From Pseudodesulfovibrio sp. S3 (GTDB lineage: Bacteria; Desulfobacterota; Desulfovibrionia; Desulfovibrionales; Desulfovibrionaceae), in the NCBI RefSeq assembly GCF_004025585.1, contig NZ_QTZO01000004.1, forward strand, positions 62,001 to 126,000: a stretch of DNA of 64,000 nucleotides. Reading direction: 5' to 3'. A program made the translations under genes and the position numbers. A model generated the notes under the pieces. The model was not told where the DNA came from. It made no database searches and was given only the letters and a program-made list of their open reading frames with translations. Below, one piece after another: positions 58,169-59,193 of this stretch (position 1 is its first letter; each line of letters starts with the position of its first letter).

Positions 58169-58960
58169 TTACAGTAATTCCATGGCGGCATCCACATCCC
58201 AGTTTTCGTGCACTACCTTGTTCAGCGCGGCCACAATCTTGGATGGGGCAGTGTGCTGGAAGATGTTTCTCCCCACCGAGAGGCCGGAACCGCCGGCCTG
58301 GATCGAATCGTAGACCATCTGTACCAGGTCGCGTTCGCTTTCGAGCTTCGGGCCTCCGGCTATGACTACGGGGACACAGCAGCCTTCCACCACTTTCGAG
58401 AATGATTCAGTGTCGCCGGTGTAGTTGACCTTGACAATGTCCGCACCCAACTCCACGCCCACGCGGGCGCAGTGCGCCACTATCTGCGGGTCGTATTCAT
58501 TTTTAATTTTTGGGCCGCGCGCATATACCATGGCCAGTACCGGCATGCCCCATTCCGACGCCTCGGAGCAGAGAGAGCCCAGGTCGGACAACATCTGCAT
58601 TTCGGTCTCGTCGCCCAGGTTGACGTGTATGGATACGGCATCCGCACCGAGTTTGATGGCGTCCGTGACCGAGCCGACCAGGGTCTTGGCATTGGGGAAC
58701 GGGGACAGGACTGTGGATGCGGACAGGTGAATGATCAGCCCGATGTCTTTACCGCCGGCACGGTGGGAACAGCGGGGAATACCCTTGTGCATGAGCATGG
58801 CATTGGCACCGCCTTCGGCCACTTGGTTGACGGTGTCGCGCAGGTCGATAAGTCCGTAGATGGGGCCCACAGTGACGCCGTGATCCAGAGGGACCACGAT
58901 GGTGCGGCCGTTATTGCGGTTCATGATCCTTTCGAGACGAATGGCTTTTCCGAGATGCAT
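58169..58960 (-). CDS. 2-amino-3,7-dideoxy-D-threo-hept-6-ulosonate synthase (class I aldolase family)
   Basis: The 263-residue enzyme is closely similar along its length to the Methanocaldococcus ADTH synthase as I recall it. Shared segments include VRLERI-like start (IRLERI), PLDHGV with the catalytic Asp, [31 protein letters not shown] with the acid/base Tyr, the Schiff-base Lys in [11 protein letters not shown], and [11 protein letters not shown]. It starts the alternative aromatic amino acid pathway that bypasses DAHP synthase. Class I fructose-bisphosphate aldolase is the alternative. The ATG at 58960 follows AAGGAG. A Phe leader peptide and attenuator lie just upstream. Confidence 0.88.
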
Positions 58961-58996
58961 GGTGCTGCTCCTTGCTTTTTGGCCGGGTTGCGGCCC

Positions 58997-59036
58997 AAAA
59001 TAAAAGAGGCCGCGGATTTCCCCGCGGCCTCTTTGG
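58997..59036 (-). terminator. Attenuator terminator upstream of the heptulosonate synthase gene
   Basis: 13-bp perfect stem AAAGAGGCCGCGG (59003-59015) / CCGCGGCCTCTTT (59022-59034), 6-base loop. On the minus strand it is followed by TTTTATTTT. It lies 26 nt after the leader-peptide stop and 42 nt before the structural gene. The 5' arm (CCAAAGAGGCCGC, 59036-59024) can instead pair with GCGGTCTTGG (59080-59071) in the leader coding region as an antiterminator. Confidence 0.85.
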
Positions 59037-59060
59037 TTGTGTTTTTTCGTTTGATTAAAA

Positions 59061-59138
59061 CTAGCGCACACCAAGACCGCAGGTGTTTCTGAAATAAAAG
59101 CTAAAAAAGAAAAAGAAACGGGCGGTGATGTTGTGCAT
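59061..59138 (-). CDS. Phenylalanine-rich leader peptide (attenuator)
   Basis: The 25-codon ORF starts at ATG 59138 and stops at TAG 59061-59063. Residues 8-16 read FFFFFSFYF: seven Phe, one Tyr and one Ser. This is the hallmark of pheL-type leader peptides. The context fits transcription attenuation: control codons, then the segment GCGGT that can pair either with ACCGC in codons 5-6 (59126-59122) or, as GCGGTCTTGG, with the terminator 5' arm. The Shine-Dalgarno is poor. A perfect TTGACA at 59174-59169 would place the start close to the ATG, so translation may be nearly leaderless. Confidence 0.8.
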
Positions 59139-59166: not shown

Positions 59167-59193
59167 CCTGTCAAGTAAACTTTCCGTGACAGG
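59167..59193 (-). promoter_or_regulatory. Inverted repeat overlapping the leader promoter -35
   Basis: CCTGTCA (59167-59173) / TGACAGG (59187-59193), 13-bp spacer. On the minus strand it contains TTGACA (59174-59169) with GATACC 16 bp on. It may be an operator over the promoter, or the ridA 3' hairpin. Confidence 0.4.

Follow-up and report, generated by a model that had tools for sequence, protein, structure and literature searches.

The pheA attenuator of E. coli is built from a Phe-rich leader peptide and from an antiterminator and a terminator that have a common arm. Entry into the aromatic pathway of the same bacterium is split by aromatic end product among the DAHP synthase isozymes AroF, AroG and AroH, and it is controlled by allostery and by TyrR and TrpR. 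For a sulfate reducer, Table 7 of a 2005 paper (PMC1173090), which lists Merino's predictions, places a putative attenuator before the aroA' supraoperon of D. vulgaris, with the gene order aroA', aroB', aroQ-pheA, aroF and tyrA followed by the trp operon; attenuation on an operon for ADTH synthase (2-amino-3,7-dideoxy-D-threo-hept-6-ulosonate synthase) is already in print there as a prediction. The trpLE(G) attenuator of S. meliloti is described with a leaderless trpL (PMC7298713).

We analysed a stretch of 64,000 nucleotides from Pseudodesulfovibrio sp. S3 (the window), in which an initial annotation had proposed a phenylalanine attenuator ahead of a heptulosonate synthase gene. The best explanation of the element, judged from its anatomy, its conservation, its covariation and the clade structure of its specificity, all of which can be read in the sequences, is that it very probably acts as a ribosome-mediated, Phe-responsive transcription attenuator on a dedicated ADTH synthase paralog. 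As shown in Table 1, the leader ORF with FFFFFSFYF at residues 8-16 lies exactly where it had been placed; its run has one Tyr codon beside seven Phe codons, and the Tyr count is two or zero in some orthologs. The T tract and the gap of 42 nt between the end of the terminator stem and the ATG of the gene at 58960 also stood, while the stem, given before as 13 bp, was counted by the terminator scan as 14 pairs including one G.U. Folding of the RNA had been suggested as a check, and the RNA from the leader start to the gene indeed folded beyond chance (z = -4.58; 0 of 200 dinucleotide shuffles as good). At the presumed leader promoter the -10 box is poor, and a consensus promoter scan reported no site there.

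Table 1. Features of the attenuator locus in the window and of its relatives in the same genome (window positions unless a contig is named)
Feature	Position	Strand	Remark
-35 box TTGACA of presumed leader promoter	59169..59174	-	first base 36 nt before leader ATG
Weak GATACC-like -10	about 59152-59147	-	
Leader peptide ORF, 25 codons	59061..59138	-	stop TAG 59063-59061
Sensor codons, residues 8-16 FFFFFSFYF	59091..59117	-	7 Phe + 1 Tyr
Possible region 1 (GCACA...ACCGC)	59122..59136	-	pairs with 59080-59066 in minimum-energy structure; partly conserved
Region 2, antiterminator left arm CCTGCGGTCTTGGTGTG	59067..59083	-	within leader ORF tail
Region 3, antiterminator right arm CACAACCAAAGAGGCCGCGGG	59021..59041	-	overlaps terminator 5' arm
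Intrinsic terminator hairpin	59003..59034	-	14 pairs, loop 4; terminator scan
Terminator T tract TTTTATTTT	58997..59005	-	
Shine-Dalgarno AAGGAG of structural gene	58968..58973	-	
Predicted ADTH synthase gene	58169..58960	-	263 aa, stand-alone paralog
Second Phe leader MNSLQNRFSFFFFFSFRFFRSACGLGVCV with terminator (L140)	contig C3:102529 region		ahead of symporter genes
Operon leader AYFSNFYFWYWYNHARGLGRGAV with terminator (L004)	contig C6, 9632-9537		Phe, Tyr and Trp codons; ahead of aro-trp supraoperon

The window gene is predicted to encode an ADTH synthase. Its product scored 398.9 bits against TIGR01949, above the curated equivalog cut-off of 299.45, and also matched NF005556. The closest solved structure was MJ0400, with which the Asp of DHGV, the Tyr of YxRG and the Lys of DIVK aligned, and we take these to be the catalytic residues. 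Three ADTH synthase paralogs were found in the genome. The window copy stands alone, with ridA on one side and a lytic transglycosylase gene on the other, and a plus-strand ORF with an Hpt domain in between. The second copy is the first gene of an aro-trp supraoperon and is followed by genes for DHQ synthase II, chorismate mutase/prephenate dehydratase, AroA, a TyrA-like protein, a TrpE-like protein, TrpG and TrpD (all matches of the TyrA-like protein, and the TrpE-like protein, scored below cut-off), and the third (L003/L005, contig C22) lies apart on another contig. DAHP synthase was not found in the genome, with 0 matches to PF01474 and a single match to PF00793, which was KdsA (TIGR01362, 406.9 bits, cut-off 314). 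ADTH synthase, the sole kind of aromatic pathway-entry enzyme found in this genome, therefore plausibly replaces DAHP synthase, as had been assumed at the outset.

Conservation was examined in a genus set of 36 genomes, mostly Pseudodesulfovibrio, all of which had at least one ADTH synthase match. A window-type ortholog was found in 33 of them, with a Phe-rich leader at 33/33, the shortest run being RFFCAFIF at L031. These leaders end 93-113 nt before the gene, except L032 at 173. An operon-type paralog turned up in 34 genomes, and 34/34 carried a Phe/Tyr/Trp leader, typically YFSNFYFWYWYSHARGLGRGAV. No leader was seen at any of the 25 third-type loci examined in the genus (33 such loci were listed). 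A detector requiring six or more aromatic residues among twelve, and a terminator within 110 nt, accepted 32/33 window-type loci (L031, with its weaker run, was missed), 34/34 operon-type loci and 0/25 third-type loci, and it accepted 0 of 535 mononucleotide-shuffled upstream regions. A terminator was present at all 105 leader loci of the genus and family. Retention of the gene with loss of the Phe run or the terminator, which the initial annotation had named as the outcome that would speak against an attenuator, was looked for in the relatives, and all 33 keep both.

To follow the specificity of the leaders, a tree was built from 101 ADTH synthases, including 13 of the 33 window-type, 10 of the 34 operon-type and 6 of the 25 third-type proteins; it came from a short search with midpoint rooting, and 40 of its 98 inner branches are open, which leaves the deep branching unsure. 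Four leader labels required 15 changes on this tree versus 40 for shuffled labels. Two rows are mis-tagged through a Trp in the tail, namely L074, which is effectively Phe, and L132, which is effectively a Tyr run. Phe-only leaders fell on one branch (SH-aLRT 98) that holds 19 of the 20 Phe-labelled rows together with L074, covers the window type and genera g13, g20, g24 (on a long branch) and g28, and is nested among mixed leaders; a separate Phe-only case, L123, stands outside it. Another paralog clade has Phe/Tyr leaders at L126 and L128 (G037 and G079; NFFGFYYF) and the Tyr run of L132 (G070; AYAYYYYYATG), which suggests further specificity switches. This distribution bears on the possibility that the leader responds to aromatic amino acids at large, or to the speed of translation, and not to Phe in particular, as might be supposed from the mixed Phe/Tyr/Trp leaders of its operon relatives and from the single Tyr codon in the window run. 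We consider this unlikely, since Phe-only composition is nearly a property of one clade and the run holds no Trp codon in any of the 33 genus orthologs.

The pairings that would make the Phe-rich leader an attenuator were then compared across loci. The antiterminator arms named earlier, GCGGTCTTGG and CCAAAGAGGCCGC, sit in place and their pairing is right, but the helix had been drawn too short: nascent folding lengthens it to 17 bp, made up of CCUGCGGUCU/AGGCCGCGGG, UGGU/ACCA and GUG/CAC. Stated generally, the leader tail carries (X)GCGG and the terminator arm CCGC(Y). Exact GCGG and CCGC motifs occurred together at 75/105 loci, and at 30/105 an exact copy of one or the other was lacking. The permutation test used the 44 of these 75 loci that are not of window type and set aside the 31 that are. 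X and Y could form a standard pair at 43 of the 44, and at 36 the pair was a Watson-Crick one, versus 20.6 expected by permutation; the 44 loci are related, so that this gives no strict probability. In a 45-locus alignment the nine-pair antiterminator core was paired in 96.0% of cells with a covariation of 0.289, which none of 500 shuffles reached (shuffled covariation 0.232) and which slid versions fell short of (0.10-0.12). The key pair was UA at 19 of these loci, CG at 15, UG at 9, AU at 1 and another combination at 1. Conserved Phe codons and covariation of the antiterminator against the terminator, the result that the alignment proposed in the initial annotation was meant to look for, were thus both found. 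The terminator core was paired in 100% of the 45 sequences and nearly invariant; its covariation was 0.037, below some slid versions (up to 0.165).

Tail and arm also matched each other in predicted duplex energy. With one representative for each of 27 genus-level types, the matched duplexes summed to -914 kcal/mol, while permuted partners gave a mean of -774 kcal/mol (sd 18), and 0 of 20,000 permutations were as low. For the window itself, 19 of the 26 other arms bind its tail better, so its own arm ranks 20th of 27, and four other tails bind its arm better, its own tail ranking 5th of 27. Pairing between tail and arm was poor at L120, L124 and L132. A 13-pair version of the antiterminator was 87% paired in the genus. 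A second antiterminator helix, UUGG:CCAA, was 61.8% paired on the gapped genus alignment, which counts against that helix as aligned.

Pairing between the start of the leader and its tail was less well kept. The ACCGC (59126-59122) and GCGGT (59080-59076) segments of the initial annotation are in place, and the helix they form is the weakest of the three pairings proposed there, only partly kept, with 88.5% of cells paired in the genus and one pair broken in 9/33. For the 1:2 helices tested, covariation was weak or absent, and it was absent for an alternative hairpin, ACACC:GGUGU. The 1:2 hairpin is visible in the full-length window fold. Folded alone, the window leader gave z = -4.06 versus mononucleotide shuffles; leader ORFs of window type had a mean z of -2.85 in the same comparison, with z below -1 in 31/33, and those of operon type less, with a mean of -1.04.

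To see how ribosome position might decide between the structures, nascent window RNA ending at the terminator loop was folded, with masking of the leader that ran to 15 nt past the A site. The antiterminator core had a probability of 1.00 for an A site on Phe8, 10, 12 or 14 and of 0.56 for one on Phe16, dropping to 0 for a ribosome that had reached the stop codon. The nascent fold without a ribosome also favoured the antiterminator, a state that 1:2 pairing would be expected to prevent. With the whole terminator transcribed, equilibrium favoured it whatever the position of the ribosome. The choice must therefore be kinetic, a feature shared with classical attenuators. From these results we infer ribosome stalling and Phe-dependent termination at the window leader, with charged tRNA-Phe as the signal that would be sensed. 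When Phe is plentiful, the ribosome would pass the Phe codons, reach the stop codon and cover region 2 in the leader tail; the terminator would then form, and RNA polymerase would stop near 58997. Under Phe shortage, the ribosome would stall on the Phe codons and leave region 2 free to pair with the emerging 5' arm of the terminator, and transcription would enter the ADTH synthase gene.

Another feature of these leaders is the position of their promoters. An exact TTGACA was found upstream of the leader at 91 of the 105 genus and family loci, and a box with at least 5/6 matches at 98/105, versus 14.1 in shuffled sequence. At 79/105 loci the first base of such a box (5-6/6) lies 36-37 nt before the leader start; a few leaders (e.g. 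L096, L120 and L122) were assigned an internal start codon, which spoils their distance. Given a 17-bp spacer after TTGACA, transcription would start at or adjoining the leader AUG. Shine-Dalgarno duplexes of -6 kcal/mol or below were predicted for 10/105 leaders versus 103/105 ADTH synthase genes. Leaders from other families of the order had an exact TTGACA 36-40 nt upstream in 17 of 18 cases, and 2/18 (L241 and L245) had Shine-Dalgarno pairing below -6. The position of the -35 box and the weak Shine-Dalgarno pairing suggest that the leader peptides of Desulfovibrionales are probably translated from leaderless mRNA.

Among 15 leaders from other orders, an exact TTGACA was seen within the stretch searched in four (L285, L290, L291 and L298), at 54-55 nt before the leader start, and these four had Shine-Dalgarno duplexes of -5.9 to -8.3 kcal/mol, unlike the 36-40 nt layout of Desulfovibrionales.

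A probably leaderless ORF with a conserved tail, RNACGLGVR, recalls S. meliloti (PMC7298713), and by that precedent the terminated leader RNA or the peptide could also act in trans, in the manner of rnTrpL/peTrpL, and so explain the conservation of the leader. This seems decidedly improbable, because the tail looks conserved as RNA and not as peptide. At L130 the CCTGTGG motif is out of the usual frame, yet it forms a good duplex with the arm, which argues that the ACG/ARG peptide tail is kept through RNA pairing and not through a function of the peptide; at L124 the pairing motif is also out of frame, with a weak duplex.

The attenuator reading was further compared with what else the genome holds. 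A run of five Phe codons is not rare by itself: 12 overlapping matches were found at 8 places in the 3.68-Mb genome, versus 16 matches for the reversed control. Two of the 8 places, the window and a sodium symporter locus, combined a soon-ending short ORF with a strong terminator; the detector also accepted L142, a weak hairpin inside a 92-residue open frame. At the symporter locus (L140) the leader is followed first by the gene of a small accessory protein of symporters, which scores above the cut-off of NF045580, and then by the gene of a sodium:solute symporter, of which 404 residues were read and matched the family models with scores below cut-off. Leader and terminator were called at 27 of 30 genus orthologs of this locus; two of the misses are incomplete sequences, and L331 is complete. 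A covariance model made from ADTH synthase attenuators, whose training set was without any symporter element, gave 78 bits for the window element, 76 for the operon element and 69 for the symporter element (E 2.7e-14), and beyond these three no listed match in the genome exceeded 26.8 bits. Three homologous attenuators were thus found in this genome, with Phe codons before the stand-alone ADTH synthase gene, Phe codons before the symporter gene, and Phe/Tyr/Trp codons before the supraoperon, and the symporter becomes a candidate Phe transporter. A search of the genome with the pattern GCGGYCTTGG was uninformative, giving 96 matches versus 49 for the reversed control.

Of the weak covariance model matches (at most 26.8 bits) that were inspected, an aromatic leader was seen at a trpS case alone. 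This tryptophanyl-tRNA synthetase gene (L348/L361, contig C7:89715-89746 and upstream; TIGR00233, 248.6 bits, cut-off 176.75) was matched at E 1e-80 in merely 4 of the 36 genus genomes, and by inspection 4/4 have a Trp leader, RRWW or RRWWWQ. The copy in the genome studied here has TTGACA 37 nt before the leader ATG, and a terminator is present too. It is probably an accessory TrpRS under Trp attenuation.

The commonness of five-Phe runs, which are no commoner than the reversed control pattern, could be taken to mean that the Phe-rich ORF arose by chance where the sequence is rich in T and that the hairpin merely terminates ridA (59596-59213), which is upstream and co-directional. We regard this as very improbable, since the terminator lies about 180 nt beyond the ridA stop and past the conserved TTGACA, the leader is kept at every one of the 33 orthologs found, covariation links its tail to the terminator arm, and the aro operon and the symporter are preceded by the same arrangement. 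Translational control by sequestration of the ADTH synthase Shine-Dalgarno is hardly credible either: leader peptides can affect translation, with nothing specific to favour it here, but more than 20 nt separate the end of the T tract of the hairpin from the Shine-Dalgarno, and a terminator-like hairpin occurs at every leader locus of the genus and family.

Beyond the genus, the loci were taken as best matches and are a non-random sample. An ADTH synthase match was present in 189 of 199 genomes of the family, and an aromatic leader with terminator was found in 38 of 40 best-match upstream regions from 23 other genera, the exceptions being L129 and L135. Seventeen of 20 best-match regions from other families of the order passed the leader and terminator detector; L229 has a leader and no terminator call, and L246 and L247 were without a leader. 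At phylum level a Desulfoluna query had a match at E 0.001 in 183 of 297 genomes, many of them, at about 30% identity, probably other aldolases. Among the best 30 phylum loci, 17 had an aromatic leader with terminator, L293 among them; L295 has merely 40 nt of upstream sequence, too little for a leader call. From 80 named contigs 20 were positive, all from Desulfovibrionales or other Thermodesulfobacteriota taxa, and the 60 negative ones included some Desulfovibrionales and other Thermodesulfobacteriota as well as Spirochaetes, Planctomycetes and others. These results suggest that aromatic attenuators on ADTH synthase genes form a set spanning Desulfovibrionales and other orders of the phylum.

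Tandem ADTH synthase genes, with starts about 820-840 bp apart, were observed in eight genomes of the family (G049, G127, G055, G160, G184, G048, G044 and G084), and the first gene had a mixed aromatic leader in all seven of the eight pairs that were examined.

Looking across all these loci, we lean towards a wider view, in which entry control at ADTH synthase would be split among paralogs by attenuators with switched codon specificity: operon-type copies would keep mixed Phe/Tyr/Trp leaders, probably the ancestral state, while duplicates would have leaders with Phe only, Phe/Tyr or Tyr, and the Desulfovibrionales set would be leaderless, with its start codon at +1 and with the amino-acid-sensing ribosome loading right at the 5' end. 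Paralogs may then come to answer to different amino acids by changing a few leader codons and not allosteric sites, and the natural series from mixed to Phe, Phe/Tyr and Tyr leaders offers material on how attenuator specificity evolves. A leaderless start, if true, would provide a large conserved set for the study of leaderless initiation in an uncommon setting. The ADTH synthase route of methanogens and sulfate reducers would also gain a specific, testable form of regulation.

Among known systems the window element most resembles E. coli pheA and pheST, with their leaders pheL and pheM, in its Phe-rich leader, in an antiterminator and terminator sharing an arm, and in the transcriptional outcome. 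The initial comparison with pheA holds for these sequence-level features, although it missed that the leader start appears leaderless, which differs from pheA and pheST. The targets differ as well, chorismate mutase/prephenate dehydratase and PheRS in E. coli and an aldolase-type enzyme of pathway entry in the window. Membership in the Rfam family Phe_leader (RF01859) was rejected: the window element scored 28.7 bits, below the gathering score of 55, with Leu_leader close at 25.5, and at gathering score Rfam had no match in the window. The attenuator before aroA' of D. vulgaris (PMC1173090), a sulfate reducer related to the one studied here, has an ADTH synthase gene as its target too; it is an element of the operon type and not of the window type, and its entry there names no leader peptide, Phe specificity, stand-alone ADTH synthase or paralog comparison. 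The initial statement that no Phe attenuator was described on this enzyme must therefore be narrowed, since an attenuator was tabulated in 2005, though that entry mentions neither Phe specificity nor a leader peptide. Beyond PMC1173090, the open-access matches listed contained no other description, and the excerpts of PMC545781, PMC10102598, PMC5764234, PMC2965389 and PMC11705803 hold nothing on the window element. Like trpLE(G) of S. meliloti, as described in PMC7298713, the leader ORF would begin at the 5' end of the transcript; the S. meliloti leader belongs to an alphaproteobacterium, is specific for Trp and precedes trpE(G), whereas Desulfovibrionales have aromatic attenuators whose leaderless start is deduced from promoter position. 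As with AroF, AroG and AroH, pathway entry appears to be divided among paralogs under different aromatic end-product control, but ADTH synthase is an unrelated enzyme, and its control would be leader-peptide attenuation in place of allostery and TyrR or TrpR.
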